Shown here in pieces: positions 43,389 to 63,361 of a stretch of 64,000 bases of DNA. The notes beneath the pieces are model-generated. The model was not told where the DNA came from and searched no databases. It was given only the letters and a program-made list of their open reading frames with translations. Position 1 is the stretch's first letter. The number at the start of each line of letters is the position of its first letter. Made by a program: the position numbers and the translations under genes. The stretch lies in NCBI RefSeq assembly GCF_030268965.1, contig NZ_BSSE01000008.1, positions 124,001 to 188,000 on the forward strand, given 5' to 3'. This stretch comes from Microtetraspora sp. NBRC 16547. Lineage in GTDB: Bacteria; Actinomycetota; Actinomycetes; Streptosporangiales; Streptosporangiaceae.

Positions 43389-43433
43389 CTTCTAATCCGA
43401 CGGTCGGGGGTTCGAATCCCTCAGGGCGCGCTC
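43389..43433 (+). repeat. att repeat 1: 3' half of tRNA-Arg(UCU)
   Basis: 45 bp identical to three later copies. It begins in the anticodon loop (CTTCTAA, anticodon TCT) and runs through the variable loop, T stem-loop (GGGGG-TTCGAAT-CCCTC) and 3' acceptor strand AGGGCGC plus G. No D arm or 5' acceptor strand precedes it, so it is not a functional tRNA. This is the classic footprint left by integrases that use tRNA 3' ends. Confidence 0.92.
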
Positions 43434-43898
43434 ATCATCATGGCCCTGACCTGCGGTTTCTCGTCCGCGAGGGGCTTCGGTGCGACCAGCAGGTCCCGGA
43501 TGGTTGCTCGTTGTTTGCTCGCGTGTACGGATCGGGCACACGGTAGATCGTTTAGATGGGCAGTGTCAGGTCGGCCCTTAAGGACGATCATCTGAAGACC
43601 AAGACAGAACGGCCCCCGCAGGCTGCTGCGCCCGGTGGCGGCATACTGACGGCCAAGCGCGGGCCAAGCGGACTCTTCTCTTGCAACGCGGCGAGCCGGT
43701 GAGCTTGGTCCAGAGACGGACGCCCGTGCAGCGGGGGCCACGAATCTGCTCTTCGGATGTCAGGGCCGCCAAGCCCTCCTATTAGGTAGCGCACTGCCTA
43801 TTGGGGAACTGCACGTCCCTGCACAGGCTCACTGCTGGGCGAACATCGGAGCGTGGGAGGGCTCGACCGGCGATCACCTGTTGCAGCCCTGACCCATG
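43434..43898. other. Left end of unit 1, no gene seen
   Basis: Contains a doubled TTGCTCG motif (43503-43521; GGTTGCTCGTTGTTTGCTCG, followed by CGTGTACGG) that recurs near the right end of the unit at 51737-51750. I interpret this as an arm-type binding site of the lost integrase. The minus-strand frame at 43421-43741 has no recognisable domain. Confidence 0.4.
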
Positions 43899-44456
43899 TC
43901 ATGACGGCGATTCGCTGGCGAGGTGTCCGCCTTCGTTCTCCCACCGGTATTCGGCTTGCGCGGTCATTGATGTGTCGGTGGCGCTGCCGCTTAGAACGAG
44001 GATGTCGGCGGGCCGGGCGCTGCCGCGGCCCTGGGTGGCGAGCCTGAATGCGTTCGCCGCCGCAGCCGTGCCGGTTTCGGGTGGGATCACCAGGAGTTCC
44101 CAGTTATCACCGGTGGCCGTGTGCAGGCTGAGCAGGTGCAGGTCGATGGAGCGGAACCAGCCGACCCTGATGACGCGGCCGCTGGCCGGTATCCGGTGCG
44201 GGATATTGGTCCAAGCGTCGGGATGCAGGCCGACGCGCAGCACTTTCACCTTCAGCCGGCGATCCACCTCGGCGATGAGGCCGGGCAGTTCGTCACCGGC
44301 GTTGGTGGAGTAGGGCCACCACGCGCCGTCCACGGCGCCCAGGTGACGCGGCGTGGGATCAAGTCGAAGTCGCACCGTTGCCGAGCGGTCCGGCGGCGGA
44401 GCGGGAGGCGGGACGGCGGTGGCCGGTTGGGAAGTGTGGAATTGGTTCGGCGTCAT
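43899..44456 (-). CDS. DUF5994 family protein (copy 1)
   Basis: 185 aa, ATG with GAGGGG upstream. 'VRLRLDPTPRHLGAVDGAWWPYSTNAGDELPGLIAEVDRRL' is the DUF5994 signature, shared with the second copy at 50105-50503. The C-terminal extension ('SMTAQAEYRWENEGGHLAS') is specific to this copy. Function unknown; such genes often lie near ANTAR, STAS and other stress genes of actinomycetes, as here. Confidence 0.8.
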   Translation of the reverse strand: MTPNQFHTSQPATAVPPPAPPPDRSATVRLRLDPTPRHLGAVDGAWWPYSTNAGDELPGLIAEVDRRLKVKVLRVGLHPDAWTNIPHRIPASGRVIRVGWFRSIDLHLLSLHTATGDNWELLVIPPETGTAAAANAFRLATQGRGSARPADILVLSGSATDTSMTAQAEYRWENEGGHLASESPS

Positions 44457-44765
44457 GGTCGCCGTTCCCCTCTCGACCCGCGAACGGGGCCGTCACGGTG
44501 AAACGCTGAGGGCGGCGCTGATTTGATCGTCAACGTGCGGAAGGTCCCCAGTACTTTCACCGTACTCGCCCGCGACCCGATCGTTGCTGCTCGTGTCGGA
44601 CCGGGGTGTTGGTCGTTATCGTCAGGCGAGCCGATCAGCCCCTGCAAGCTACCTCCTCGCCAGTCAGTTGGCCCGTTGGCATGGGTCCGAGGCGTGCGGC
44701 TCGCCAAGGGATGCCTCACCGCGCGACCGCGATGGCTCCCGCCGCAGCGGCTCGAAACCCAAGAT
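44457..44765. other. Intergenic region of unit 1
   Basis: 309 bp between two minus-strand genes. Some frames are open but without start signals. Probably the promoter of the DUF5994 gene. Confidence 0.35.
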
Positions 44766-44933
44766 TCAGCGGCCGGGCCGGGTGCCTCCTTGCCGGAACC
44801 GCACAAGCGCGAAGATGAGGTCGGCCACCAAGATGACCACACCGATGGTCAGCAGGTAGAACAGGCCCTTGACGACGACGCCGATGATTCCCAGGACAAT
44901 CGCCACGAGGAGCAGTATCAGGAACAGTGCCAT
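44766..44933 (-). CDS. Small hydrophobic two-helix membrane protein
   Basis: 55 aa from an ATG at 44933 with AGGAGG 6 nt upstream. Reads 'MALFLILLLVAIVLGIIGVV', 'VKGLFYLLTIGVVILVADLI', 'FALVRFRQGGTRPGR': two adjacent transmembrane helices and a basic tail. Very similar small 'hydrophobic protein' genes occur in stress-response loci of actinomycetes. The ideal ribosome binding site and composition support expression. Confidence 0.75.
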   Translation of the reverse strand: MALFLILLLVAIVLGIIGVVVKGLFYLLTIGVVILVADLIFALVRFRQGGTRPGR

Positions 44934-45138
44934 CGCCAACCTCCTTCTGGTCCTGTGGTGTCAGCGGCGGGCGAGGCGCCGTTCGCCGCCCGCACCCGCT
45001 GGCCTCCCCTTTTGTCCTCTTCCGTCCTCCTGCCACCTGGCCACTGCGCCGCGCCTGGGTGCTGTGGGGCATATTGCGAGGTGATCGGCGGCCGCGTCGC
45101 TATGCCCAGCTGAGTGACGGCCGCTGAGCTCCCTGCGG

Positions 45139-45399
45139 TTAGAGGTATTGGCCCGCCTCGGCGCTGGATGTCTTCAACACCCGCACCGACACCACGTTGG
45201 CCAGGTTGATGACCACGCCGTTGAGGTCGCTTTCGCCGCCGTACCTCGCCTGGGTCAGCACCAGACTGCGCCTCTCGTCCAGAGCGCGTGCGATCGCCTC
45301 CAGCGCCTCGGGCTCCCCACTGAAGTCTTCACTCATCACGGAGACGTCTTCGCCGCTCACCAGATGAAACCGCATGATCAGCATGATGTCGCCAGGCAC
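45139..45399 (-). CDS. Hypothetical 86-aa protein
   Basis: GTG at 45399 with AAGGGGG ~7 nt upstream. A compact beta/alpha sequence ('MRFHLVSGEDVSV', 'EALEAIARALDERRSLVLTQARYGGESDLNGVVINLANVVSVRVL'). It resembles a small sensor or binding domain, but I do not recognise a family. Confidence 0.55.
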   Translation of the reverse strand: MPGDIMLIMRFHLVSGEDVSVMSEDFSGEPEALEAIARALDERRSLVLTQARYGGESDLNGVVINLANVVSVRVLKTSSAEAGQYL

Positions 45400-45791
45400 G
45401 GGCGGCCCCCTTTCCGCCAGAATTCCCCAAGGGCACCTGCCCAGCGTGCAACGCTCTAAGCGGGTGCCCTCTGCGTCGATCTGCCCACAATGTGGATCTG
45501 GACGTTCTGAAGAAATGGTCGGCGGTGCCCTCTCACTCGGCTTGATCTAACGCGGCGGCCAACCGCGCGCCCACAGGGCACGCGCGCTCCACAGCCTTGC
45601 GGGCCACCGCATCACCTCAGCCCGGGGCTCGCGGGTATGGCGAGGAGGGAGACCACATCCGGCTATGCGCCTACGCCGCAGTGTCCACGGCTTGCTGCCG
45701 GCCGAAGTAGCGTGCACTGGTGGGGGCCGCGTCTTCACCCCGGACCAAGCAAGATCCGGTATTTCCGATGTACCCCTCCAGGGAGGCGGTC
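45400..45791. promoter_or_regulatory. Divergent intergenic region with a nested hairpin
   Basis: Lies between two divergently oriented genes (45139-45399 minus, 45792 plus). GGGCACC (45431-45437) pairs with GGTGCCC (45463-45469), and inside it AGCGT (45443-45447) pairs with ACGCT (45451-45455). This may be an operator or leader structure. Confidence 0.4.
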
Positions 45792-46502
45792 GTGACCCGG
45801 GAACGCCAGCTGACCGACGCGTTTGCCGAACTGACGGACACACTCGTCCGGGACTTCGACGTCGTCGACTTGTTGCACCAGCTCACCCTGCGCTGCGTGC
45901 AACTGCTGGATGTCGATGCGGCCGGGCTGCTGCTGACCGATCAACAAGGGCGGCTGCGTCCGATGGCGGCCTCTACTGAGCAGGCCCGCATGCTGAAGCT
46001 GCTCCAGCTGCAGAACTCGGAAGGTCCCGGTCTGGACTGCTACCGCACCGGCGAGCCGGTGACCTGTATCGATCTCGCAGCTGGGGGAGGGCGGTGGCCT
46101 CGCTTCGCCGCTGCGGCGCAGCATGCCGGCTTCATCGCGGTCCAGGCACTGCCGATGCATTGCGGTGAAAAGGTCATCGGCGCGTTGAGTCTTCTGCGCA
46201 CGGCGACCGGCCAGTTGACCGCAGACAATCTGCACATTGCGCAGGCGCTGGCCAACGTGGCCACCATCAGCATCCTGCACCAGCGTGCGCTGGAGCAGCC
46301 CGAGGCGACCGCCGAGCAGCTGCAGGCCGCACTGAGCAGTCGCGTGCTCATCGAACAAGCCAAAGGAGTGCTGGCCGAACGGCGCCACATCGACACGGAC
46401 CGGGCCTTCGACTCCTTGTGTATCTACGCGCGCAGCCGCGACCTGCGTCTGTACGCGGTAGCCGATGCCGTCGTCCACGGCAAGCTTGACATCGCCGACT
46501 GA
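45792..46502 (+). CDS. GAF and ANTAR domain antitermination regulator
   Basis: 236 aa from a GTG at 45792 with GGGAGG 7 nt upstream; ATG at 45768 is an alternative. Residues ~5-165 form a GAF sensor ('DVDAAGLLLTDQQGRLRPMAAST', 'VQALPMHCGEKVIGALSLL'). Residues ~175-235 are an ANTAR domain ('QLQAALSSRVLIEQAKGVLAERRHIDTDRAFDSLCIYARS'). ANTAR proteins bind paired hairpins in mRNA and prevent termination. Candidate targets are leader hairpins in the same unit (for example 47298-47320). Confidence 0.85.
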   Translation: MTRERQLTDAFAELTDTLVRDFDVVDLLHQLTLRCVQLLDVDAAGLLLTDQQGRLRPMAASTEQARMLKLLQLQNSEGPGLDCYRTGEPVTCIDLAAGGGRWPRFAAAAQHAGFIAVQALPMHCGEKVIGALSLLRTATGQLTADNLHIAQALANVATISILHQRALEQPEATAEQLQAALSSRVLIEQAKGVLAERRHIDTDRAFDSLCIYARSRDLRLYAVADAVVHGKLDIAD

Positions 46503-47354
46503 GCCCACCGTGTGTCCCTGTCGGGCTCACTCCATTTCTTTCTTCACCTTCGCCGTGATCGGCCGAAGGCGAGGACGAACACGTCGACGGGGATCCTCGC
46601 GAGGTCGCGCCCCCGATCACACAGTTTCCCACCCACAGGAGGCGTTGGCGTCGGTCTGCGGCTTGGGTCGGCGGTAGGCGACCAGTCCGACCATGTTACG
46701 TTTAGTAGTCATATCTTGCTGTACGTGACTGAATCCGCTGTGGGCTGCCCCGGCGTGGCGGGCGGGGAAACCGATGGACATCGATCGATCATGACGAGGG
46801 ATACCCCATGCACGAGGTACCGACTCCCCACGACCCGGCCAGCCACATCATCAGCACATGGCTAGGACAGGTGCTCTACCTGGCCGGGGCACAGCTTTCC
46901 GAGTTCCCTGTGCCAGCAGACGCACTCCTGCCGTCCCCCGCGTGCTGTATGGCCACACCAGCAGTCTCGTCCTGGCTAGCGGAGGGCCATGGCACGTCAC
47001 AGGCCTGATCCGGCAAGCTCATCCGTGACATTGAGCAGCTCCGCCGCATTGCCGAAATCCGGCCCAGCGAGAGCGTCTGGAGGAGCCCCACGTACACCCA
47101 CCTCGACCGCGACACCCCTGGGTGACGCCCGGGCCCTCAACGCCGTGCGGGATCAACTCGGGCAACGAGGCAGTTCTGTGCGTCTGGGTTGGCCCTCGGG
47201 AAGGTGGATGTTTCACGGTCCTCGGCTCAGCACTATTGGTCGTCCCCGAGAACCATCGCCCGTCTGAACGTTGATGATCTAAGCCCTCCTTGAGGAACCC
47301 CGCCCGTGGCCAAGGGCGGGCACGGGTAGTTCCCGTCTGGAAGGAGGGCCCTTT
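46503..47354. other. 850-bp region with gene debris
   Basis: A small plus-strand frame starting 'MHEVPTPHDPASHIISTWLGQVLYLAG' (46808-47008) may be a short gene or a remnant. A second piece near 46999-47125 reads 'LIRDIEQLRRIAEIRPSESVWRSPTYTHLDRDTPG'. Near 46700-46735 the GC content drops (TTACGTTTAGTAGTCATA), which may mark a promoter. The leader of the ferredoxin reductase gene lies at the right end. Confidence 0.4.
47298..47320 (+). promoter_or_regulatory. Leader hairpin before the reductase-desaturase operon
   Basis: CCCGCCC (47298-47304) pairs with GGGCGGG (47314-47320) over a 9-nt loop, 35 bp before the ATG at 47355 and just ahead of the GAAGGAGG ribosome binding site. It may act as an attenuator. 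An ANTAR regulator is encoded 0.9 kb upstream and could act here; only one clear stem is visible, while ANTAR targets usually have two. Confidence 0.4.
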
Positions 47355-48446
47355 ATGACTGGCCTGGCCAGAACCCCGATCGACGATGTCACGCTGCGCC
47401 TGGCGGACACGGCCGCCTGGCTGACGACGCCGCTCATGCCCGAGGACTACCTCACTCTGATCAACCCTTTATGGTCCTCACGAGAGCTCCGCGGCCGCGT
47501 CGAGGCGGTCCACCCTGAGACCAAGGACGTGGCGAGCCTCGTCATCCGTCCCGGCCGTAGCTGGAGCACACATCGAGCCGGCCAGTTCATCAGAGTGGGC
47601 GTCGACATCGATGGCGTACGGCACTGGCGCACCTACTCGTTGTCCTCGGCGCCGGAGCGCGGCGACGGTCGCGTCACGATCACGGTGAAATCGGTCCCCG
47701 GCGGTGTCGTCTCCACTCAGCTCGTTCACCGGACCACGCCGGGGACCATCGTCGCCCTGACCCGGCCGGAGGGCGGCTTCGTGCTGCCGGAGCCGGTTCC
47801 GTCCCGCCTGCTGTTCGTGACCGCGGGAAGCGGAATCACGCCCGTGATGGCGATGCTGCGCAGCCTGGCACGGCCCGGGAACATGCCGGACGTGATCGTC
47901 CTGCACTCGGCGCCCACCCGTGAGGAGGTCATCTTCGGGCCCGAACTCCGCACGCTGGCGGGCCGGTTCCCCAACCTGCACCTGCACCTGCAGTACACCA
48001 GGTCGAGCGGTCGGCTGAACCTGTCGCAGTTACCCGACCTGTGCCCGGACTGGCCCGAACGTCATGTCTGGGCGTGCGGGCCGACCGGGATGCTGCGCGA
48101 AGCTGAGACGTACTGGCGCGAGGCCGGCATCGCCGATCGGCTACGTGTGGAGCACTTCCGTCCTGCCGTGACGACATCGGCCGCAGGCGGCGGCGGACAT
48201 GTCCGTTTTCTTGTGAGCGGGCGGGAGGCGGACGCGGACGGCGCAACCCCGCTGCTGGTGGTAGGCGAGAACGCGGGGGTCCTCATGCCGAGCGGCTGCC
48301 GCATGGGCATCTGTTACCGGTGCACGGGACGGCTGCGGTCGGGCCGCGTCCGTGACCTGCGGACCGGACGCGAATACGGCGAAGAGGGAGAACTCATCCA
48401 GACCTGCGTTTCGGCCGCCGACGGCAACGTTGAAATCGAGCTGTGA
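47355..48446 (+). CDS. Ferredoxin reductase-like oxidoreductase with C-terminal 2Fe-2S domain
   Basis: 363 aa, ATG with GAAGGAGG. FAD-binding 'HWRTYSLSS' (~91-99), NAD(P)-binding 'FVTAGSGITPVMAMLRSL' (~153-170) and 'HVWACGPTGML', then a plant-type 2Fe-2S domain with Cys ~314, 319, 322 and ~351 ('SGCRMGICYRCTG' ... 'QTC'). This matches the electron-donor partner of membrane acyl desaturases (the Rv3230c type). It passes electrons from NADPH to the desaturase encoded 6 bp downstream. Confidence 0.92.
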   Translation: MTGLARTPIDDVTLRLADTAAWLTTPLMPEDYLTLINPLWSSRELRGRVEAVHPETKDVASLVIRPGRSWSTHRAGQFIRVGVDIDGVRHWRTYSLSSAPERGDGRVTITVKSVPGGVVSTQLVHRTTPGTIVALTRPEGGFVLPEPVPSRLLFVTAGSGITPVMAMLRSLARPGNMPDVIVLHSAPTREEVIFGPELRTLAGRFPNLHLHLQYTRSSGRLNLSQLPDLCPDWPERHVWACGPTGMLREAETYWREAGIADRLRVEHFRPAVTTSAAGGGGHVRFLVSGREADADGATPLLVVGENAGVLMPSGCRMGICYRCTGRLRSGRVRDLRTGREYGEEGELIQTCVSAADGNVEIEL

Positions 48447-48452
48447 GGACTC

Positions 48453-49622
48453 ATGAAGACCATCAGTGAGGCGGATACCGAGGAGTTCGGCCGCGAGCTG
48501 GACAAGATCCGCGACGATGTGATCGCGAACCGGGGCGAGGACGACGCGAGGTACATACGGCGCGTCATCGCCGTACAGCGTGCCCTGGAGGTGAGCGGCC
48601 GTACGCTGCTCTTCGCCTCCGTCCTGCCTCCGGCCTGGCTCGCCGGGACCGCCGCGTTGGCCACCGCCAAGATCCTGGAGAACATGGAGATCGGCCACAA
48701 CGTCCTGCACGGGCAGTGGGACTGGATGCGCGACCCCGCGATCCACTCCAGCACGTGGGAGTGGGATCTGGTGTCCCCGGCCCGTCACTGGAAGTACACC
48801 CACAACTACCTGCATCACAAGTGGACGAACGTGCTCGGCAAGGACCGGGACATCGGTTTCGTCCTGCTGCGTCTCAGTCCCGAGCAGCCGTGGCATCCCT
48901 ACTACCTTGGGCAGCCTCTCTACAACGCGATCCTGGCGCCCTTTTTCGAATGGGGAGTGGCGCTACACGATCTCGAGGTGGAGCGCGTGCGCGGTGGAGA
49001 CAAGAGCTGGAACGAGGTGTTCATCCAGCTTCGCGAGATCCTCCGCAAGGCCGGACGCCAAGTCGTCAAGGACTATGTGGCGTTTCCCTTGCTGGCCGGG
49101 CCGTTGTTCTTGCCCGTTCTGATCGGCAACTTCACCGCCAACATGACGCGCAACGTGTGGGCGCACACCGTCATCTTCTGCGGTCATTTCCCCGACGAGG
49201 CCGCGACCTTCACCGAGGAACAGGTCGAGGGCGAGACTCGCGGCGAATGGTACCTGCGCCAACTGCTCGGCTCCTGCAATCTCACCGGTGGCTCGCTCTT
49301 CCACATCATGGCCGGCAATCTCAGCTACCAGATCGAGCACCACCTCTTCCCGGATCTCCCGAGCAATCGGTATGCCGAGGTAGCGCCCCGCGTGCGCGCC
49401 CTGTGCGAGCGGTTCGGGCTGCCCTACAACACCGGTTCACTGCTCCGCCAGACCGTCCGGGTCTGGAAGCGTGTCTTCCGGCTGTCACTGCCCACGTCGC
49501 CCGGCGGCCCGGAGCGGACGGCCGCGCCCGCTCGCCTGCAGGCGGTGACGGCGCCCGCCGGCTACACGACGGGCATCGACGTTCTGGGACGCGCGCCCGC
49601 TCTGCGTGGTGCCTCAGGCTAG
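48453..49622 (+). CDS. Membrane fatty acid desaturase (DesA3-like)
   Basis: 389 aa. Three histidine boxes bind the di-iron site: 'EIGHNVLHGQWDW' (~78-90), 'HNYLHHKW' (~116-123) and 'YQIEHHLFPDLP' (~291-302). Hydrophobic segments lie at ~50-70 and ~210-235. It resembles mycobacterial DesA3, which with its reductase makes oleoyl chains from stearoyl-CoA. It is co-transcribed with the reductase gene. Desaturation raises membrane fluidity, a common cold or stress response. The last 9 bp overlap the convergent STAS gene. Confidence 0.92.
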   Translation: MKTISEADTEEFGRELDKIRDDVIANRGEDDARYIRRVIAVQRALEVSGRTLLFASVLPPAWLAGTAALATAKILENMEIGHNVLHGQWDWMRDPAIHSSTWEWDLVSPARHWKYTHNYLHHKWTNVLGKDRDIGFVLLRLSPEQPWHPYYLGQPLYNAILAPFFEWGVALHDLEVERVRGGDKSWNEVFIQLREILRKAGRQVVKDYVAFPLLAGPLFLPVLIGNFTANMTRNVWAHTVIFCGHFPDEAATFTEEQVEGETRGEWYLRQLLGSCNLTGGSLFHIMAGNLSYQIEHHLFPDLPSNRYAEVAPRVRALCERFGLPYNTGSLLRQTVRVWKRVFRLSLPTSPGGPERTAAPARLQAVTAPAGYTTGIDVLGRAPALRGASG

Positions 49623-50021
49623 CGGTGCCTCAGGCAGGCGCACGGGATCGCGATGTCTGGACGCGATCGCGCCGGACAGCGTGGGGTGGACGGTGAAGCT
49701 GTGGTCCAGTCCCGTGACGCGCAGCAGATCGACCATCCGAGGGGTCGGTGCGGCGAGCCGGAGCGTGATGCCGAACTCCCTGGTACGGCGCTGGATGCCG
49801 ACCAGTACGGCCAGCCCGGAGGCGTCGCAGAAGGACACCCCGGACAGATCGAGGATGAGTACGTTCTCGGCCCGTTGGAGCGCGTTGCGTAGACGCATGC
49901 GTAGCGCCGGGCTCGTAGCGATATCGATCTCGCCGTGCAGTCCGATGATGGTATGGGCGGGCCGGCACGCGGCCAGCAGGCGCGCGTGCGTACGGGCCCT
50001 GGAGTGGACGGTGGTGGTCAT
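49614..50021 (-). CDS. STAS domain anti-sigma factor antagonist
   Basis: 135 aa. 'IGLHGEIDIATSPALRMRLRNALQRAENVLILDLSGVSFCDASGLAVLVGIQRRTREFGITLRLAAPTPRMVDLLRVTGL' is a full STAS domain with the phosphorylatable Ser in 'CDASGL'. Such proteins bind RsbW-type kinases. The RsbW-like gene of this window is 46 kb away, so the partner is unknown. It ends within the end of the desaturase gene. Confidence 0.9.
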   Translation of the reverse strand: MTTTVHSRARTHARLLAACRPAHTIIGLHGEIDIATSPALRMRLRNALQRAENVLILDLSGVSFCDASGLAVLVGIQRRTREFGITLRLAAPTPRMVDLLRVTGLDHSFTVHPTLSGAIASRHRDPVRLPEAPLA

Positions 50022-50104
50022 GAGATCTCCGATGTCGAGAAGCTGAAGATTGGGTATGCCGTGCCCCTGGTGTAAGGGGCCGCCGGCTGTGGTCGAGCGT
50101 GCCT

Positions 50105-50503
50105 TCAGGCGGCTGACGCGTTCACGGCGCCAGGGGCCATCAGCAACAGGCTGGTGTGGCTGGCGCTTGTTGTGGTCAGTCCGACCAGGTGGGAGTCGAT
50201 GTCCCGCGAGTTGTTCACCTCGACAAGGCGGCCCCGGGCCGGAAAATCACGCGGGATGTCGTCCCAGACGTCGGGGTTGAGATCCACCCGGACGGTCACC
50301 CCGCCCAGTCGCTGGTCGACGGCCGCGATGAGACGGGGCAGTTCCGCGGCGGCGTCCCGCGAACTCGGCCACCACATGCCATCCACGGTGCGGCGGCTGT
50401 CGGGGACGGAGTCGAGATTCAGTCGCACGACGCAGGGGTCCGTTATCACGGTGACGGAAAACGGCGTGGACGGTCGGATGCGGTACAGGAGTTTCGGCGT
50501 CAT
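50105..50503 (-). CDS. DUF5994 family protein (copy 2)
   Basis: 132 aa from an ATG at 50503; the frame runs to 50731, but the upstream part lacks similarity. 'CVVRLNLDSVPDSRRTVDGMWWPSSRDAAAELPRLIAAVDQRL' matches DUF5994 and the first copy. It is shorter than copy 1 and ends 'SLLLMAPGAVNASAA'. Two copies bracket the desaturase, STAS and ANTAR genes, which suggests they belong to one stress regulon. Confidence 0.8.
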   Translation of the reverse strand: MTPKLLYRIRPSTPFSVTVITDPCVVRLNLDSVPDSRRTVDGMWWPSSRDAAAELPRLIAAVDQRLGGVTVRVDLNPDVWDDIPRDFPARGRLVEVNNSRDIDSHLVGLTTTSASHTSLLLMAPGAVNASAA

Positions 50504-51863
50504 GGTCGGCCGGTCTATCTCGGTTTTCAGGACCGCGTTTACTATCGCCTCGGGCGACGCCGACCCTGATGCCAACGCACGAAAAGTCCTTGGTATCTCC
50601 AAGCTATCCGTCAAAGTGGTCACAGATGGGCCCGAGGCGGGCAACACGACGGAGATCTTCACATACTCGCCGACAGCGCCGGTGAACTCGGAACACCCCC
50701 GCCGTGCCGGGCTCGTCCTGAGACCGGCCAAGATCGCGAAGTTTCTCGCCGGTCTCGCCTGAGACGCGCTGGGGCCAGGAACACCGCATCCTCCCGGCTC
50801 AGTGCCTCAACACCCGCTGGGGGCTCGTGGCCTTCCTGCCAGTTGGGCGGTTACCGCGGACATCAAGGCGCTCGTGTCCACACGCGCCGGGTGCCACCAG
50901 CACCCTGTCCCGGCTGCTCGCCGCGTCCCTGTCCCCACCGGCTGGCGCCACATCGCCGGGCGGGGTGCAGCGGCCGGCCCCGCACGGCCGGGGCCGTCCC
51001 GCGGCCGTCGGCCCGGCCAAGACCAGCCGGCAGAGAAGGGGAAGCAGCCTGCGGCGGGAACCATCGCGGAGCATGAGGGCCTGCATCTGTGTGGCGCCGC
51101 GCATATTCATCTGTCGCTTGTTGGGCGAGTCTGGCTGTGTAACGCATCGTCCCGAACCGGGCTCACCTGCCAGAACGCTGGCCCGGCGTCGATGCGGTCC
51201 AAGCCGCTACAGCGAACGCGCCACCCGAGGCGACACCGGACGCATCGGCGAACGCTACAGGGGTCAACAAGCCTGAGCAGCGAACTCCGCTGGTGCCCCC
51301 GCCCCCGTGCACAGCTGGCAACGAACTCCTCTGGTGGGGTCCGTCTCGTGCACGTGAGCGAGCCGCACCACCTCTGCCCAGCGCACCCGTAGCCCGTCAC
51401 GGCCCTCGGGTGAAAGGCCGTTTTAGCCGATCCCGGCACCGGTGAACCACGCCCGGATATGGTGCGTTCATGCATGCCCGCTCTTCAGCGAAGGTGTCAA
51501 GCACCGCCTCGCCATCGGCGGCGAGGGCGTGGCCATACCGCACGGTTTCGCCGGGCCGGGGCCGTCAGATCGTTCTGTGCGTCTGTCCTCGCTGTGGGGT
51601 AGGTGATGCCCCCGGTAGGGCGCATGCGGCCGTCTGGGTGATGTCCCCGCGGATGGTGTAACTCCAAGGGACGTGACCGTTCGAGGCTTCAGGTGGCTGG
51701 CCGATGTTGATGGTCAAGTCCCCATGGTCGCTCGGTGGTTGCTCGTGTGTAAGCGGTACGACATGACAGGGGCTGTCATCAACCAACACGGAAGTGGCAA
51801 CAATGCCGGACGGAACGACAGAAAGCGGCACGCCGAAACACGGGGTGGCATTTGTCCAGGTCA
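50504..51863. other. 1.36-kb region without a supported gene, right end of unit 1
   Basis: Many frames are open because GC is high (up to ~200 codons at 50802-51392), but none has a clear ribosome binding site or a recognised domain. A hairpin lies near 50973-50996 (CGGCCCCG ... CGGGGCCG). The right end (51737-51760) carries TTGCTCGTGTGTA, resembling the left-end motif of the same unit. I see no tRNA besides the att repeat that follows. Confidence 0.4.
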
Positions 51864-53426: not shown

Positions 53427-53448
53427 GTGTGAATGCTCATGCGTTGTC

Positions 53449-55593: not shown

Positions 55594-55634
55594 GGTCGCC
55601 CCACGGTTGTTCGATTCGCCTACCGTCCGCACGT

Positions 55635-56048: not shown

Positions 56049-56166
56049 AGCTTTTCCTTCGTCGTGACGTGTTCGTGAATGCTGCCAATCCTGGCCGCGA
56101 CGCCGTGGCCCGACAATTCCCTGGAGGGAATGGCCATACGCCGTTCACTGCGTTAGACAAGGTCCG
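56049..56166. promoter_or_regulatory. Divergent promoter region of the NTF2/MDR pair and XRE regulator
   Basis: 118 bp between divergent starts. It should hold both promoters and the operator of the XRE protein. A TTCCCTGGAGGGAA palindrome at ~56117-56130 (TTCCCT / AGGGAA) is the best operator candidate. Confidence 0.5.
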
Positions 56167-57012
56167 GTGACCATCACTTCGGAACGCGGCGGGTTCGCCG
56201 GTGTCCTGCGCGAGTGGCGCGGACGCCGCGGCGTCAGCCAACTGGACCTCGCTCTGCGTGCCGGAACCACGCAGCGGCACGTCAGCTTCATCGAGAGCGG
56301 GCGGTCGACCCCCGGCAGGGCCATGGTCGTAAGGCTCGCCGAGTCGCTGGAGATGCCGCTTCGGGAACGGAACGCGCTGCTGCTGGCCGCGGGCTACGCC
56401 CCCGCCTACCCGGAAACTCAGTTCGATGACCCCGAGCTCGAACCGGTCCGCACCGCACTGGAAGGCGTCTTGCGAGGGCACCACCCGTATCCCGCGGTGA
56501 TCGTCGATCGGCGCGGCGATCTCGTCTCGGCCAACAACGCGTTCTGGGTGCTGACCGAGAGCGTGGCGTCCCATCTCCTTAAGCCGCCTGTCAACGTGCC
56601 CCGCTTGTTGCTAGATCCTCAAGGAATGGCGCCGCGGATCATCAACCTGGACGTATGGGCCTGGCACGTGATCGACCATATCCGGCAGGAAGCGGCTCGC
56701 AATCCCGATGACCGGCTTGAGGCGCTGGTCACTGAGCTCACGAAACTGGTACCCGATCGCCCCCGGCAACCGGGACCGGGTCACCTCGGCTTCGCGGTCC
56801 CGCTGCGGCTCCGCTTCGGCGACGGCGAGCTTCAGCTCCTGACCACGCTGACCCACTTCGGGACCGCGGTCGACGTCACCGTCGCCGAGCTGCGGATGGA
56901 GGCCTTCCTTCCAGCCGACGCGGCGACCGCTTCCGCCCTCGCCGAACTCGGGCGGGCCGCACCCGGCAGCGCCTCCCGCAAGAGACACCAAGATCCACAA
57001 AATAAATCATAA
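56167..57012 (+). CDS. XRE-family regulator with MmyB-like ligand-binding domain
   Basis: 281 aa. HTH at ~10-70 ('GVLREWRGRRGVSQLDLALRAGTTQRHVSFIESGRSTPGRAMVVRLAESL'), then a domain with 'PYPAVIVDRRGDLVSANNAFWVL' and 'LRLRFGDGELQLLTTLTHFGTAVDVTVAELRMEAFLPAD', the MmyB-like ligand-binding fold. It is divergent from the oxidoreductase pair and probably represses it, with a small molecule as inducer. The target is inferred from the shared intergenic region. Confidence 0.88.
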   Translation: MTITSERGGFAGVLREWRGRRGVSQLDLALRAGTTQRHVSFIESGRSTPGRAMVVRLAESLEMPLRERNALLLAAGYAPAYPETQFDDPELEPVRTALEGVLRGHHPYPAVIVDRRGDLVSANNAFWVLTESVASHLLKPPVNVPRLLLDPQGMAPRIINLDVWAWHVIDHIRQEAARNPDDRLEALVTELTKLVPDRPRQPGPGHLGFAVPLRLRFGDGELQLLTTLTHFGTAVDVTVAELRMEAFLPADAATASALAELGRAAPGSASRKRHQDPQNKS

Positions 57013-57477: not shown

Positions 57478-57522
57478 CTTCTAATCCGACGGTCGGGGGT
57501 TCGAATCCCTCAGGGCGCGCTC
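57478..57522 (+). repeat. att repeat 3: 3' half of tRNA-Arg(UCU)
   Basis: Third identical 45-bp copy. It is followed after 60 bp by an ISL3-family element. Confidence 0.92.
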
Positions 57523-57582
57523 CCAAGACCAGGCCACATTGTCAACGGCCAAGTGCGTGTCGCCGCTGGTGGCCAGGTTAAA

Positions 57583-59398
57583 GTGGCTCTGGCACAAAGA
57601 TCGTGATGCGGTGACTGCGTGTGATCAGGGTCGCGATTCCGTAACTGGCCAGGTATGAGGACGGCCGCACCGCCAAGATCAGGTTCGACCAAGAATCGGA
57701 TCACCAGCGAGCGGCCGTGAGGGCTATTGTGCTGCACCCCCAGGCAGGTGAGGGGACCTGCTACCTCGATCTTCTCCACCTGTTCCTTCCCCATCTGAAG
57801 AACGTGCACGTGGAGACCGTCACGTGCACGGAGAACGGATTACTCATTTGCGCTCGGACCCGCTACGCCGAGCCGTCCTGCCCGTCCTGCGGCACATCAG
57901 GGCGGCGGGTGCACAGCCGCTACCGTCGTCGTCTCAGCGATGTGACCTGCGGCGATACACCCGTGACGATCGAGCTGGAAGCACGTCGGTTCTTCTGCGC
58001 CAATCCGGTATGCGCTGCGGTGACCTTCGCCGAGCAGGTTCCCGACCTCACCGCGGCGTATGCGCGGCGCACGCCCGCGCTCAGCCGCCTGCTGGCGAGC
58101 ATCGCTCTGGCGTTGGCCGGCCGGGCCGGGACCAGACTCAGCGGCAAGCTGGGCATCCACGTGTCCCGCTCGCTGCTGATACGACTGATACGCGCCCTGC
58201 CCGACCCTGAGATCGGCCAGGTCACAGTGCTGGGCGTGGATGACTTCGCCAAGCGAAAAGGCCACGCCTACGCCACCGTCCTGGTGGACATGGCCACCCA
58301 CCGCCCCATCGACGTTCTGGACGAGCGCCGCGGTGATGTCTTGGCCGACTGGCTGCGCGACCACCCAGGCATCGAGGTGATCTGTCGTGACCGAGCCGGC
58401 GCCTATGCCGAGGGCGCCCGCGACGGAGCACCCGAGGCCATCCAGGTAGCAGATCGGTGGCACCTGTGGAAGAACCTGTGCGACGCCGTCGAGAAGACGG
58501 TCCGAGCTCACCGAGCTGACCTGGACGAACCCGCCCCCCAGGGCGAAGAGCCCGTCGAAGCAGCGACTCAAGATGCACCTTCCGCAACCGAGACGGGGCC
58601 GATCGAGTCACGAACGACAGTCCGCACTCGTGAACGTCACGCCGCCATCCACGCCTTGCTCACCGAAGGTCGCAACATCACGCAGATTTGCCGGATCCTG
58701 GGCCTGGATCGCAAGACCGTCAACAAGTACCGCCACGCCGCCAGTGCTGACGAACTCCTCAACGGCCCACGCTTCCGCTCCCGGGCCTTCAATGACTTCG
58801 TCCCCTACTTGCAACAACGTTGGGAGGAGGGCTGCACCGACGCCGCCGTGCTGTTCACCGAGATCACCGCTCGCGGCTATCGTGGCAGCGCTCGCTCCGT
58901 GCGCCGCTACGTTCAACCGCTCCGTGCGGCCCTGGGCATGTCCGCCCTTCCACCGCCTCCGCCGACAGTCCGGCAGATGACGCAGTGGATTACGCGCCGC
59001 CCGGACCGGCTCACCGAGGACGACCAGGTCCAGCTCAAGGACGTCCTGACCCGCAGTCCGCGTCTGACCGCGCTTGCCGGACACGTCGCCGCCTTCGCCC
59101 GGCTTCTTCTCGAACGGCGCGGCCAGGACCTGGCCGCGTGGATGACGGCCGTTGAAGCGGACGACCTGCCGCAGCTGCACTCCTTCGCCCGAGGCCTCCG
59201 CCGTGACCAGGCCGCAGTCCTCCACGGGCTCACCCTGGAGCACAGCTCGGGCGCGGTCGAGGGCAACGTCAATCGGATCAAGGCGCTCAAGCGGCAGATG
59301 TATGGACGGGCCAAGCTCGACTTGCTCCGTAAGCGGATCCTGCTCGGCGCGTGACATCACCCAGAGTTACCGCATCACGATCTTTGTGCCAGAGCCAC
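57583..59398 (+). mobile_element. ISL3-family insertion sequence
   Basis: About 1.8 kb. Perfect 30-bp inverted repeats at 57583-57612 and 59369-59398 start GTGGCTCTGGCACAAAG. A few more matching A/T bases lie outside both ends. I see no convincing 8-bp target duplication, so the exact ends are uncertain by a few bases. One intact transposase gene lies inside. Confidence 0.9.
57717..59354 (+). CDS. ISL3 family transposase
   Basis: 545 aa. N-terminal zinc-finger part ('CPSCGTSGRRVHSRYRRRLSDVTCGDTPVTIELEARRFFCANPVC') is the zf-ISL3 domain. Then 'VLGVDDFAKRKGHAYATVLVDMATHRPIDVLDERRGDVLADWLRDHPGIEVICRDRAGAYAEG' gives the catalytic Asp residues, and 'HSSGAVEGNVNRIKALKRQMYGRAKLDLLRKRIL' the C-terminal Glu. 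Length and order match the family. Intact frame and perfect IRs suggest a potentially active element. Confidence 0.94.
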   Translation: MRAIVLHPQAGEGTCYLDLLHLFLPHLKNVHVETVTCTENGLLICARTRYAEPSCPSCGTSGRRVHSRYRRRLSDVTCGDTPVTIELEARRFFCANPVCAAVTFAEQVPDLTAAYARRTPALSRLLASIALALAGRAGTRLSGKLGIHVSRSLLIRLIRALPDPEIGQVTVLGVDDFAKRKGHAYATVLVDMATHRPIDVLDERRGDVLADWLRDHPGIEVICRDRAGAYAEGARDGAPEAIQVADRWHLWKNLCDAVEKTVRAHRADLDEPAPQGEEPVEAATQDAPSATETGPIESRTTVRTRERHAAIHALLTEGRNITQICRILGLDRKTVNKYRHAASADELLNGPRFRSRAFNDFVPYLQQRWEEGCTDAAVLFTEITARGYRGSARSVRRYVQPLRAALGMSALPPPPPTVRQMTQWITRRPDRLTEDDQVQLKDVLTRSPRLTALAGHVAAFARLLLERRGQDLAAWMTAVEADDLPQLHSFARGLRRDQAAVLHGLTLEHSSGAVEGNVNRIKALKRQMYGRAKLDLLRKRILLGA

Positions 59399-59690
59399 TT
59401 TTACACGGCCACGGACACACATCCCCTGTGACCTGGTCTTTTGCTTTGGTACGGCATGTGCCGCCCATGCAGCCGTAGGCCACCGAGAGCCGCCGTTTGT
59501 CGCTGATCGCGGGATATACGCGGGATGGAATCGCTGACGTTTCCGCAGGTCGTGTGTCACGAACGCTGAAGGAGGCGTTGATGTAGAGGCCTCTGGATGC
59601 GGTGCTGTGCAAGAGATGGAGGTAGGTCCTCCGGGATCGCCCTGCAGGGGGAGGTCCCAAACCACCGCAGGCTGCGTCGGTTAAGCGCCG
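59399..59690. other. Short stretch between ISL3 and the group II intron
   Basis: About 290 bp. No gene supported. The minus strand contains 'SVRDTRPAETSAIPSRVYPAISDKRRLS', which may be a decayed gene of unit 3. Confidence 0.3.
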
Positions 59691-59696
59691 GTCGTG

Positions 59697-61470
59697 GTGA
59701 GCGCTGCGGGAAAAGGCGCGACTGATCGCGTCAGGTGTGGGTCAGGAAGGCGAGCGAGAGCGAACCGCTGATGACGTGTCGTAAGAAATTCCAGTGGCGT
59801 CGAAACCGGGGCAAGACCTGGGCTCCGGGACAAGTCTGGGGGGAGCCTGCCGACTGCCCAGACGGCGTCCGGCATGTAGGCGGCGCGAGCCTGGCCCGGG
59901 CTCTTGTGCGGAACGTGAGAACCTGTCGCCCCGATACTGTCGCCGGCCCGGAGGGCCGGCGACGAGAGGGAGATCCCCAAGCGGTCCACGCCGCAAGGGG
60001 CCGAGTACCGACGCGGGGCACGGGGGCGGACCGTCTCGTAGTAGTGACGAAGCCCGGTAATGCGGGTGGAGCGAAGGGGACGGGTCATCTGGGTCTGTTC
60101 GGTGGTCAACCGGCATCGCCGGGAGGAGCCAGGTGAGCGGACCGAAGTCGTTTGAGATTTCCAAGCACATGGTCCTTGAGGCGTACCGGAGGGTGAAGGC
60201 CAACAAGGGGGCGGCGGGAGTCGACGGTCAGTCGATCGAGCAGTTCGAGCAGGACCTCAAGGGGAACCTGTACAAGCTGTGGAATCGGATGTCGTCGGGG
60301 TGTTACTTCCCGCCGCCGGTGCGGATGGTGGAGATCCCCAAGCCGGGAGGCAATGGGGTCCGGGTTCTTGGCGTACCTTCGGTCGCGGACCGGGTCGCGC
60401 AGACCGTGGCGGCCATGGTCCTGGAGCCGGGAGTGGAGAAGATCTTCCATCCCGATTCGTACGGGTATCGGCCTCGCAAGAGCGCGCTGGATGCGGTGGG
60501 GGTGTGCCGGGAACGCTGCTGGAGAGCCGACTGGGTTATCGATCTTGATATTGAAGGGTTCTTCGACAATCTCGATCACGAGTTGGTGCTCAAGGCCGTC
60601 GCCCACCACACCGGCCACAAGTGGATCCTGCTGTATGTGGAGCGGTGGCTCAAAGCGCCGCTTCAAAAGCCGGATGGCACGCTGGTGGCACGGGATCGCG
60701 GTAGCCCGCAGGGTTCAGCGATCTCACCCTTGCTCGCCAACTTGTTCATGCATTACGCGTTCGACGTGTGGATGGCTCGGGAGTTTCCGGGGGTCGCCTT
60801 CGAGCGGTATTGCGATGATGTGGTGGTTCACTGTCGCAGCGAGGCCGAAGCGCACCAGGTGCGACAGGCGATCGCGGAGCGACTGGCCGAATGCGGGGGG
60901 TTGCGGTTGCATCCCGGCAAGACCCGCATCGTGTACTGCAAGGACGGCAAGAGGCGTGGCTCGTACGAACACACCTCATTCACCTTCCTTGGGTACGGAT
61001 TCCGAGTCCGCAGGGTCCGGGCGAAGACGGGAGCGTATTTCTTCAGCTTCAACCCGGCCATCAGTGATGAGGCGGCCAAGCGCATCCGGGCGCAGATCCG
61101 CGCCTGGCGGCTGCACCTGCGCAGTGGAGCAGGCCTGAAGGACCTCGCACGCGAGATCAACGCCGTCGTGCGCGGGTGGATCAACTACTACGGGCGCTAC
61201 TACCGGTCCGCGTTGGTTCCCAGCCTCAACCGGATCAACGACTACCTGGTCCGGTGGATCGTGCAGAAGTACAAGCGGTACCGCGGCCGATGGATGCGAG
61301 CGCGAGACGCTCTGGGGAGAGCCGCAACGCTTTACCCTGGGCTCTTCGCCCACTGGCACTTCGTCAAGCCGTGACCCGAAGCGACTGGATGACGGGAGCC
61401 GTGTAAATCGAGAGGTTTACGCACGGTTCTGCGAGGGCCGGGGGCTGAGATGCCCCCGGCTACTCACCGA
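59697..61470 (+). mobile_element. Group II intron (ribozyme plus maturase gene)
   Basis: The RT gene is preceded by ~430 bp of structured, non-coding sequence starting near GTGAGCGCTGCGG (5' end about 59697), as expected for ribozyme domains I-IV. Downstream, 61398-61434 forms a domain V-like hairpin: GAGCCGTG ... CACGGTTC with a GAGA loop region. Next a GGGCCGGGGGC...GCCCCCGGCTACTCA stem (about 61436-61468) fits domain VI and the 3' end. Exact exon junctions are estimates. Confidence 0.82.
60133..61374 (+). CDS. ltrA: Group II intron reverse transcriptase/maturase
   Basis: 413 aa. 'VKANKGAAGVDG', 'VRVLGVPSVADRVAQ', 'SYGYRPRKSA', 'DLDIEGFFDNLDHELV', 'SPQGSAISPLLANLF', and the active site 'ERYCDDVVVHCRS' (~223-235) are RT motifs. 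The usual YADD is YCDD here. The C-terminal maturase region ('FTFLGYGFRVRR', 'LAREINAVVRGWINYYGRYYRSALVPSLNRINDYL') is present. No C-terminal HNH endonuclease follows, so mobility may use nascent DNA at replication forks. Confidence 0.94.
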   Translation: MSGPKSFEISKHMVLEAYRRVKANKGAAGVDGQSIEQFEQDLKGNLYKLWNRMSSGCYFPPPVRMVEIPKPGGNGVRVLGVPSVADRVAQTVAAMVLEPGVEKIFHPDSYGYRPRKSALDAVGVCRERCWRADWVIDLDIEGFFDNLDHELVLKAVAHHTGHKWILLYVERWLKAPLQKPDGTLVARDRGSPQGSAISPLLANLFMHYAFDVWMAREFPGVAFERYCDDVVVHCRSEAEAHQVRQAIAERLAECGGLRLHPGKTRIVYCKDGKRRGSYEHTSFTFLGYGFRVRRVRAKTGAYFFSFNPAISDEAAKRIRAQIRAWRLHLRSGAGLKDLAREINAVVRGWINYYGRYYRSALVPSLNRINDYLVRWIVQKYKRYRGRWMRARDALGRAATLYPGLFAHWHFVKP

Positions 61471-61513
61471 GGGTCGGTTTCCGGACGTCTGCGGGATGAA
61501 TCCAAGGTACGCC

Positions 61514-61543
61514 GAAGGGCCCCGGAGTGATCCGAGACCCTTC
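61514..61543 (-). terminator. Hairpin downstream of the unit-3 integrase remnant
   Basis: GAAGGG (61514-61519) pairs with CCCTTC (61538-61543), and CGGA/TCCG pair inside with wobble pairs between. It is nearly identical to the hairpin at 53397-53426 in unit 2 and lies 23 bp past the integrase stop. Confidence 0.6.
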
Positions 61544-61565
61544 GCTTTCCCGTGCTTATGTTGGA

Positions 61566-61802
61566 TCATGCGACGAGAGCATCCGTGATCCGCTGGTTGG
61601 CCACGTCGCGTTGCCCGTCGATGCACTTGGCGTAGACCCTGAGCATGACGTCGACTCCGTGACCGGCCCGTTCCGCGGCTTCCGGGGCGTGGACCCCGGC
61701 GTTCAGCCAGAGCGAGACCGCCGCGTGCCGAAGGTCGTACGGCCGACCCGCCAAGGGAGAGGCGACCTGGTCGGGTGTGAGCGCGTAGGTTCGGGCTTCC
61801 TT
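61566..61802 (-). pseudogene. Tyrosine integrase C-terminal remnant (unit 3)
   Basis: Reads 'KEARTYALTPDQVASPLAGRPYDLRHAAVSLWLNAGVHAPEAAERAGHGVDVMLRVYAKCIDGQ'. It is almost identical to the same part of the unit-2 integrase and includes the His-x-x-Arg box and catalytic Tyr. The upstream part of the gene is lost: at 61803 the sequence changes abruptly to a very GC-rich ~120-bp stretch. It was probably close to att repeat 3 before the ISL3 and intron insertions. Confidence 0.88.
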
Positions 61803-61934
61803 CAAGGGCGGCGCTCCGCGCCGCCTCGCGGCCCTCGCCCGCTCGGCGGCCGGGCGTGCGGCCTGGGGGCCGGTCCCGGCCGCCGACGGCCCGGGCCGCC
61901 CGCCGCACGAGCAGGTGCCGTGTGACCTCGTCGG

Positions 61935-62477
61935 TCAGCGGTTGAGCCCCTTGCGGTAGCGCAACTTCCTGATTGGCAGGACCTCACTGCGGTCAAGGAC
62001 GAGCGCACCATCGTGGTGCCAGCCATTTCGCTCATAGAAGGAGCGTGCTCGCGTGTTCCCTTCCAGAACCCAGAGGGTTGCCTCGGCGTATCCAGCCGAC
62101 GCCATGGCGTCGAGGACAGCGGTGATCAGTGTTTTGCCCACGCCAGTGCCCCAGACGTCGGGGAGCGTGTAGATCGAGCCGATCATGCCCACCTGCACGG
62201 AGTCGTCATCCTCGTCGTCAGTGGGATAGAAGCGCGAGTATCCAACAACGTGGTCAGTCTGCTCAACGAGCAACGTGCCTGCCCCCGCGCCCCCGGCGCG
62301 GGTCAGCAAGCCTTCCCACGTCTTCGTCAGCGTCTCATGGTCGAGACCATCCAGGTAATCGTCCGACAGAAGCCCACGGAAGGCCGCACGCCATGATGTC
62401 CTCTGGACCCTGGCCAGGGCCGGGGCATCTTGCTGCGTGGCGAGTCTGATTCGAAGTGTCACGTGGTCTTCTCCCAT
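61935..62477 (-). CDS. GNAT family N-acetyltransferase
   Basis: 180 aa from an ATG at 62477; a GTG at 62462 is also possible. 'RIRLATQQDAPALARVQRTSWRAAFRG' starts the fold, 'VGMIGSIYTLPDVWGTGVGKTLITAVLDAMASAGYAEATLWVLEGNTRARSFYERNGW' holds the acetyl-CoA loop (V-x-P-x-x-x-G-x-G) and motif B. It acetylates a small molecule or protein; the substrate is unknown. Cargo of unit 3. Confidence 0.9.
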   Translation of the reverse strand: MGEDHVTLRIRLATQQDAPALARVQRTSWRAAFRGLLSDDYLDGLDHETLTKTWEGLLTRAGGAGAGTLLVEQTDHVVGYSRFYPTDDEDDDSVQVGMIGSIYTLPDVWGTGVGKTLITAVLDAMASAGYAEATLWVLEGNTRARSFYERNGWHHDGALVLDRSEVLPIRKLRYRKGLNR

Positions 62478-62831
62478 AGCGCCGTCTCTCCGCGTGTTCG
62501 CAGACGCTAGCCGTGACCGGGGCGGACGCAAAGCGATTATTTCTCTCGCGCAGCCCACCTTCGTTCCTGCGGCCCTTACGATCGCCTTGCTGTGGCTAGT
62601 CGCCGTACGTGGTTGGGGGCGATCGACGGTCCGAGGCCTCGTTCCTCAGCCCCGGCCCAACGAAGCGCCGTTGGTTGCACTTCGAGTTGCAGTACGGAAC
62701 CGTCCGGGGCTGTTCAGAACGGACCGCGCAGGCCCGCTGACCTGCATTGAACTGTCCTGAACGGTGATCGGCCGAGCTTTTAATCCGCGGATTCGTGAGT
62801 TGACCTTCGGACCTGCTCCTCTTGCGGGACA
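62478..62831. other. Intergenic region with arm-type repeats (unit 3)
   Basis: GGTTGCACTT (62673-62682) and AGTTGCAGTA (62685-62694) mirror the doubled GGTTGCAGTT of unit 2 (57223-57244). The next ~90 bp also resemble unit 2. No gene seen. Confidence 0.5.
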
Positions 62832-63197
62832 TCACTCCCAGGAGCCTGGCGCGTCAACGATGAGATCTTCAGGCCGTGGGAGCGTGGCCGGCTCATCTTC
62901 GACGGAGTAGACCTCAAGACACGAAAGATGGCCTTCTTCGACGAAGAGCAAGACACCATCACTGCGCCCACGTACGTCAGCGGAGATCAGCACGCCATCT
63001 TGCACCGGCGAGGCGAGTGCGCGAGGTCCTGTTCCCACTCGAAGATCCACTGTCGCGCATCCGCATCCGCAACGCCCGCTGACAACTGCCGAAGGAACCT
63101 GAGCCCGAAGTTCGTCCGCGCCGGGGAAATCCTGCGCGAGGAGTGCCAGGATGACGGCTTGCTCCTCGACTGACAGACGACGCTCACTGCTCGACAC
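62832..63197 (-). CDS. Hypothetical protein with Cys-x-Cys-x-Cys motif
   Basis: 121 aa from a GTG at 63197; the frame is open to 63317 but enters the att repeat, so the longer form is unlikely. 'SVEEQAVILALLAQDFPGADELRAQVPSAVVSGRCGCGCATVDLRV' is conserved-looking, and 'VLLFVEEGHLSCLEVYSVEDEP' and 'LPRPEDLIV' follow. Similar proteins of unknown function are frequent in actinomycetes. Cargo at the right end of unit 3. Confidence 0.65.
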   Translation of the reverse strand: MSSSERRLSVEEQAVILALLAQDFPGADELRAQVPSAVVSGRCGCGCATVDLRVGTGPRALASPVQDGVLISADVRGRSDGVLLFVEEGHLSCLEVYSVEDEPATLPRPEDLIVDAPGSWE

Positions 63198-63316
63198 GTC
63201 GTCACGGTAGCGGATCGGGCCTGCGGGATATCTGCGGGATGATCTTCTCTGCCCCCCGTACATCGATAGCTTGCCGAGCAGGTCAGCGGCATATGGCTGG
63301 GGGAAAGAATCACCCA

Positions 63317-63361
63317 CTTCTAATCCGACGGTCGGGGGTTCGAATCCCTCAGGGCGCGCTC
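63317..63361 (+). repeat. att repeat 4: 3' half of tRNA-Arg(UCU)
   Basis: Fourth identical 45-bp copy, closing unit 3. The integrase remnant of the next unit begins ~145 bp to its right, which is the distance expected for an att-adjacent integrase gene. Confidence 0.92.

Follow-up and report, generated by a model that had tools for sequence, protein, structure and literature searches.

Introduction

Decayed islands, reduced to part of an integrase and a handful of cargo genes, are often found behind tRNA genes, and the route by which a mobile element is converted into one is seldom visible. Among related systems, cis-mobilizable elements (CIMEs) are bounded by attachment (att) sites, lack a working integrase and adjoin elements with the same att, and the tycheposons of marine cyanobacteria combine a tyrosine recombinase, a tRNA target and small cargo units. 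In Streptomyces, accretion at a tRNA-Arg gene, defective actinomycete integrative and conjugative elements (AICEs) and remnants of a partial integrase with cargo have been described, and cis-mobilization has been proposed for such arrays (PMC9513070). AICEs arranged in tandem have also been reported, as have integrases for tRNA-Lys and tRNA-Met (PMC3218068). Here we analyze a row of displaced tRNA-Arg(UCU) 3′ halves in Microtetraspora sp. NBRC 16547 (G000), found in a 64-kb stretch of contig NZ_BSSE01000008.1 (C8:124001-188000), hereafter the window.

The array is a tandem accretion of elements derived from pSAM2-type AICEs, a known phenomenon. It resembles the Streptomyces arrays in having several elements, different integrases, one tRNA-Arg gene, identical direct repeats and a remnant. 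It differs from the array as that report presents it in its host family, the Streptosporangiaceae, in its larger number of displaced cores, and in decay junctions that trace to an origin-like site (PMC9513070). Our reading of the whole, which we consider probable, is that of an accretion array of pSAM2-type-derived AICEs in which deletion from the replication origin to the integrase gene (int) explains the loss of int from one unit of the array (unit 4) and from relatives.

Results

Displaced tRNA-Arg(UCU) halves behind one intact gene

The original prediction, made from the letters of the window, described four 45-bp direct repeats that divide the DNA into units of 8.5, 5.6 and 5.8 kb. These repeats are present at 43389, 51864, 57478 and 63317, in direct orientation and mutually identical over CTTCTAAT...GCGCGCTC, and sequence matching assigns them, as proposed, to the anticodon loop through the acceptor end of tRNA-Arg(UCU). 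The measured spacings are 8,475, 5,614 and 5,839 bp. All four displaced halves read on the plus strand: the first (43389..43433) is the right end of unit 1 and the left end of unit 2, and the others lie between units 2 and 3 (51864..51908), units 3 and 4 (57478..57522), and units 4 and 5 (63317..63361).

ARAGORN called no tRNA within the 64-kb window. The intact tRNA-Arg(UCU) gene had been expected upstream and outside, and it lies at C8:105322-105397, 18.6 kb before the window start. A genome-wide search with the 44-bp core (up to 3 mismatches allowed) found it at five places in the 7.82-Mb genome, all exact and all on one strand of contig C8; the reversed control pattern gave no match genome-wide under the same search, and the chance expectation for exact copies is ~2e-19. 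The repeats are not scattered, and the unit structure stands. The intact gene contains the fifth exact core, and the first window copy follows it at a distance of 62 kb (62,035 bp from core to core). A decayed sixth core (C8:197698-197740; 95% identity, one base missing) follows 10,382 bp past the last window copy and bounds unit 5, the further unit that had been foreseen past the last repeat. The four copies are thus correct as an observation and incomplete as an inventory, since the stack is longer on both sides and comprises five bounded units. An intact target is followed by direct 3′-half copies that bound distinct units, in the order tRNA - 62 - 8.5 - 5.6 - 5.8 - 10.4 kb.

The exact identity of the copies had been attributed either to recent events or to maintenance by recombination. 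The intact tRNA is the same at all 76 nt in a congener (G001), M. fusca (G002), M. glauca (G003) and M. malaysiensis (G064), so each integration would deposit a fresh identical core and no recombinational upkeep is needed. With 0 changes in 176 displaced core bases, divergence since integration is at most 1.7% (95% upper limit). Across the family, 156 of 297 genomes hold at least one core and 71 at least two, the present genome having the most with five; these counts include the intact tRNA, and the copies were not checked one by one.

Displaced halves also occur in other settings. In M. malaysiensis, one displaced core (L087/G064:C48:94834-94877) is of the GCAGG type, as found in the tRNA-Arg(UCU) of other genera, and stands in an array whose intact tRNA is of the GGGGG type; this core is possibly the fossil of a foreign 3′ half. 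Displaced tRNA-Lys halves are repeated at four places in M. fusca and three in M. glauca (L105, L109, L212; G002:C43, G003:C48), and a tRNA-Tyr half (88%) lies elsewhere in the present genome (L065, G000:C12). These Lys and Tyr halves reflect the same habit at other tRNA genes.

Unit arms and integrase loci

Repeated integration at one tRNA gene, as originally proposed, is consistent with every test that we made, and the arrangement of arms and int in the array is that seen beside intact tRNAs in relatives. For this comparison we used the best 80 of 559 integrase-family loci, from named genomes. An intact tRNA lies within 1.5 kb after int in 46 of the 80, in a single orientation in all 46 (Tyr 16, Arg(UCU) 14, Arg(CCU) 9, Met 3, Lys 2, Ser 2).

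Each core in the array is followed by its own left arm. Those of units 3 and 4 correspond to the int-tRNA spacer of relatives: the unit 3 left arm (51907..52094, plus strand) is 88% identical to the int/tRNA-Arg(UCU) spacer of Microbispora siamensis (L125), and that of unit 4 (59413..59552, plus strand) is 96% identical to the spacer of Microtetraspora malaysiensis (L124). Units 1 and 2 have a different, type-A left arm (in unit 2 at 43433..43610, plus strand), which in G001 comes after an intact tRNA-Lys(UUU) and in relatives after displaced 3′ halves of tRNA-Lys or tRNA-Met. Relatives of a 529-aa recombinase lie 1-9 kb from type-A arms at these Lys/Met cores. At least two integrase lineages contributed to the array.

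Right arms recur in other company. The unit 1 right arm is found in M. malaysiensis and G006, at 70-78% identity over 150 bp, before other left arms. The right part and arm of unit 4 (62703..63316, plus strand) are 90.6% identical, core included, to M. malaysiensis, where they precede a different left arm (arm alone 91%; left arm 37%). Shuffled sequences gave 16-40% identity in this comparison. Between the present genome and M. malaysiensis, the unit 1 arm differs at 42 of 150 bases and its core at 0 of 44 (P 4e-6); for unit 4 the values are 13 of 150 and 1 of 44 (P 0.13, not significant). The core in G006 is a 4-mismatch variant.

Beyond chromosomes, a small circular Streptomyces plasmid carries an int of the family, AICE-type genes and, twice beyond int, a tRNA-Ser-like 3′ half (named by eye). 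Int matches in phage records were all distant, with identities under 60%.

Comparison with relatives and flanks

Units come and go independently between relatives, as seen in the reassortment of arms and in units absent as blocks. If the whole 20 kb were conserved backbone, relatives should carry it; among the matches listed for eight relatives, only pieces were found and no near-complete block. In G001, a conserved downstream stretch is reached 24 kb past the tRNA; in the present genome the corresponding distance is at least 147 kb, the length left before the contig ends, a comparison that assumes no intervening rearrangement. The chromosomal flank on the downstream side is found on a different contig (C37), so a clean empty site is not demonstrable; no core was found in the stretches fetched around that flank.

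These comparisons also bear on the idea of a single composite 20-kb element that contains tRNA-like repeats, which we regard as hardly credible. M. glauca does have the unit 2 cargo and part of the unit 4 right end 10 kb apart with no recognizable cores between them, as such an element might. Against this, arms reassort around cores between species, every core has a left arm of its own, and unit contents occur in differing contexts.

Two further observations concern the surroundings. Beginning 37 bp past the decayed sixth core, outside the window (C8:197777-229956, from window position 73777), 32 kb with a nonribosomal peptide synthetase gene (one protein scanned) are 98.2% identical to G064:C48 of M. 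malaysiensis, a member of another GTDB genus; to the left of the tRNA, identity is 81-92%. In addition, a stretch found on the left side of the tRNA in G001 is placed far to its right in M. glauca (L068/L090-L094, G003:C25), which suggests an inversion around the tRNA-Arg hot spot.

An origin-like element in integrase loci

In unit 4, the int fragment (61468..61801, minus strand; from about residue 383, with downstream sequence) stops at 61801/61802, where a 108-bp GC-rich element begins (61802..61909, minus strand). On the minus strand, hairpins ending ...GGAGCGCCGCC-CTTGA are fused at CTTGA to int. The element has 23 matches in the genome, nine of them within 5 kb of an integrase by PF00589 positions, a count that excludes the unit 4 copy, whose int fragment is too short for the model. 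In the integrase loci, 24 copies (E ≤1e-8) occur in 23 of 80, all in one orientation relative to int (two-sided P 1e-7), and in ten loci (L128, L129, L130, L136, L151, L155, L164, L166, L193, L196) the element lies ~8-9 kb upstream of int. Most copies read CTTGA-TCCCTATAAGNACAATTCGGCA; among the matches listed, in which some places appear twice, the tail score is at least 14/22 in 35 of 55. The sequence beyond the element is not conserved. The hairpin pattern is present in 70 of 297 family genomes, and its DNA fold has a z of -3.2.

L151, from Nonomuraea sp. MG754425, is a complete relative. It contains, in order, a distal half core (319-369), the element (1212-1328), NUDIX, HTH, GntR, FtsK, RepSA (E 2e-104), int and tRNA-Tyr. 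Its att halves, tyrosine integrase, RepSA and FtsK-type Tra make it an AICE. The integrase scores 19.4 bits against a Pfam cut-off of 27.1, yet is homologous to A1. Together with its GntR, NUDIX and Xis-like genes, this content matches pSAM2-type AICEs as outlined in one survey; unlike those, the window units are without rep and tra, and the int relatives in the array are decayed or different (PMC3218068). Of 31 loci tested, 5 have a second half core identical to the tRNA.

On its complementary strand, the pC194 origin reads CTTG^ATAATA (PMC5037232), and pSAM2 has been assigned to the pC194 family from its nick site (PMC3218068). Here the CTTG^AT motif, a hairpin and an element with a matching Rep are found together. 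From the resemblance of hairpin plus CTTGAT to a pC194-type origin, we infer that the 108-bp element is a RepSA-type rolling-circle double-strand origin.

We had considered a dispersed repetitive extragenic palindromic (REP)-like repeat or an insertion end, and dropped both on account of the fixed place and orientation of the element in int loci. An alternative, in which the element is one terminus of an IS91/Helitron-like rolling-circle transposon that entered int by one-ended insertion at CTTG-like targets, would account for the fixed end, the variable partner, the CTTG-like target and the 23 genomic matches. We regard it as very unlikely: within complete elements the sequence always sits at one position and points one way with respect to int, no transposase adjoins it in the annotated elements, and, as noted, what lies beyond it is not conserved.

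Junctions between the element and int, xis or rep

The fusion in unit 4 is one of 12 junctions, from nine species, in which CTTGA, read along the nicked strand, runs into the 3′ part of an element gene; Microbispora rosea and two other genomes have two each. In the 460-aa int family, the junctions fall at residues 383 (unit 4 of the window), 210, 192, 176, 258, 151, 413 and 218; at residue 151, int homology starts 21 nt on. The others fall at residue 341 of an int529-type recombinase, residue 14 of xis, residue 344 of RepSA, and in a stretch directly before xis that we take as the 3′ end of rep.

At the breakpoint itself, CTCGA or CTGGA occurs exactly in place in close intact homologues for 7 of 10 testable junctions. 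The motif was counted if three or more of the six most similar intact homologues carry it (3 to 6 of six), with positions judged from aligned DNA. The base rate of CT(C/G)GA in rep-xis-int is 0.0073 per base, giving P ~1e-13 for 7 of 10.

Two Microbispora rosea loci illustrate what such a deletion would leave, each a clean unit with a distal half core: one, of 3.8 kb, stands at tRNA-Met and the other, of 6.5 kb, at tRNA-Arg(UCU). In both, int was aligned from residue 1, and neither has room for rep and tra. The single long RepSA frame of the present genome (502 aa) is on contig C21, so an initiator acting in trans may exist for such events; the RepSA search of the genome placed none on contig C8.

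Several observations weigh against our overall reading, accretion combined with deletion from the origin. Neither circles nor empty sites nor transfer were observed, and the unit 2 cargo in M. glauca sits without recognizable cores. Three of the ten testable breakpoints lack CTSGA (G008:C19, G000:C19 and N. jiangxiensis, the last with its frame mis-set). The unit 3 int break has no origin-like element and is not of the origin-deletion kind; units 1 and 2 lack an int next to att, and the unit 1 recombinase lies ~45 kb inside its unit. Elements lacking the tail divide as follows: in a first set of 15, three had no match at all and two only weak integrase matches, while in a further 20, two abut int, four have integrase or RepSA further downstream, one has a weak opposite-strand match, nine have no match and four fall outside the proper test. 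Finally, slippage beside a hairpin between 5-bp repeats predicts identical junctions.

The last point belongs to a possible but doubtful explanation: ordinary accretion followed by random decay, with the element merely a fragile palindrome where slippage between 5-bp repeats ends. The hairpin is strong, a 5-bp near-repeat is present at the breakpoint, unit 3 decayed with no such element beside it, and in Streptomyces elements have been reported that decayed until part of an integrase, cargo and direct repeats were left (PMC9513070). Random decay fits less well with a fixed end that is the same base, 5 nt past the hairpin, at 12 junctions in nine species, with the hairpin side always kept. Tails without the GC hairpin, the form expected of a reciprocal product, number only two in the loci examined, one cut by the locus end and one with another hairpin, and the motif fits the nick consensus of pC194-type origins. 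For unit 4 and its counterparts, deletion from the origin to a site in int, xis or rep is in our view the best explanation.

Contents of the units

The window units are derived from AICEs and are not AICEs. No replication initiator, FtsK-type transfer gene or intact integrase was found among the scanned proteins of units 2-4, which are att-bounded and without detected working recombination or transfer genes, as CIMEs are. A working integrase in the small units of the window was considered and rejected, as only truncated copies occur.

Unit 1 begins at C8:105398, after the intact tRNA, and spans 62 kb, of which the distal 43.4 kb (1..43388) are in the window and hold defense genes and transfer-gene remnants. 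Its genes include a type I restriction set and GmrSD-like, CHAT and HNH-effector-like genes, together with TraD-like and SCO6880-like remnants (weak matches). An HTH_17 excisionase-like gene (26339-26569, plus strand) neighbors the 529-aa tyrosine recombinase (26541-28130, plus strand; PF00589 E 9e-23), which scores 26.4 bits against integron-integrase models with a cut-off of 265. The unit as a whole (C8:105398-124000 and window 1-43388) is defense-rich, and its HNH gene matches effectors of the cyclic-oligonucleotide-based antiphage signaling system (CBASS) type.

Unit 2 (43434..51863) encodes DUF5994, GAF-ANTAR, an FAD/2Fe-2S oxidoreductase and a fatty acid desaturase, with no integrase detected. 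In unit 3, an integrase without its N-terminal third (53449..54321, minus strand) matches residues 149-454 of a 460-aa homologue. The cargo (54562..57012) comprises a zinc-type alcohol dehydrogenase and a small protein on the minus strand and an MmyB-like regulator on the plus strand; frames of 399 aa and 421 aa had no Pfam match and are probably spurious. Between the arm and int, ~1.3 kb (52095-53379) are missing from intact loci; this segment has no inverted ends and no match in the eight relatives, among the matches listed.

Unit 4 has been interrupted twice. An ISL3-family insertion sequence with 57-bp inverted ends (57569..59412, plus strand) is inserted in its left arm, and a group II intron (59553..61467, plus strand; RVT_1/GIIM protein at 60133-61374) lies between int and att. 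The target site of the intron is uninterrupted in M. malaysiensis (G064:C48:103567/8), and the intron is the sole Rfam match at gathering thresholds in window 36000-64000. A separate 1.86-kb stretch (C8:232411-234269), 92-98% identical in all compared arrays, may be another group II intron; directly past it, ARAGORN called a selenocysteine tRNA (C8:234393-234486; L062 7394-7487). The cargo of unit 4 is a GNAT acetyltransferase (61935..62558, minus strand).

At 63522-63584, the start of unit 5 (63362..64000) retains a trace, at the DNA level, of the 3′ end of an int. The unit (C8:187361-197697) holds TetR-like and sensor-kinase genes, a CAAX protease and a phosphoesterase/PQQ protein.

Discussion

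Illegitimate recombination at plasmid rolling-circle origins has long been known. Single-stranded DNA has been tied to illegitimate recombination events (PMC5703833). The staphylococcal cassettes of double-strand origin, gene and single-strand origin are similar in that a rolling-circle origin borders a movable cargo segment; in those, as reported, cargo spreads between plasmids, whereas here integrated elements would lose their backbone and the other border is att (PMC5037232). The array itself is of a known kind. In the literature searched, we found no description of its decay route, an origin-fixed deletion in AICEs.

The mechanism that we propose has two parts. In the first, an incoming element would carry a tRNA 3′ half on its attP; integration would rebuild the tRNA with the half of the element and displace the old half to the distal end. 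Successive arrivals would leave a row of att-bounded units, and it is the anatomy of such a row that we observe. In the second part, rolling-circle replication would begin at the 3′ end of CTTG and proceed through NUDIX, tra, rep, xis and int. RepSA may then cut early, at a false CTNG^A site in int, xis or rep, and the end would be joined to the origin. Such an early cut would yield a hairpin-CTTGA fusion to int, matching the observed polarity. The transfer and replication genes of the backbone would be lost and the hairpin and CTTGA fused to the 3′ part of int, leaving an immobile product with the order att, int 3′ end, origin half, cargo, att. This unit could be carried in cis by a later element at a neighboring att; it shares the traits of CIMEs, from which it differs in that its mobilization in cis is a prediction of the model.

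We lean towards a broader claim, that the rolling-circle origin of AICEs serves as a fixed end for deletions, so that replication and transfer genes are stripped while att ends and cargo are spared, a route to domestication. What makes the route visible here is that the breakpoints can be read: one base of an origin-like site is joined to varied points in int, xis and rep in nine species. The claim is testable in laboratory Streptomyces. If it is true, the replication of an integrative element would be linked to its own domestication, and the fusion of hairpin and CTTGA to a gene would be a sequence signature for finding such remnants. It would also give a source for the cargo-only att units behind Streptosporangiaceae tRNA genes, where a replication error would fix foreign genes. 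In this soil actinobacterium, one tRNA gene is a loading dock for defense, metabolic and biosynthetic genes.

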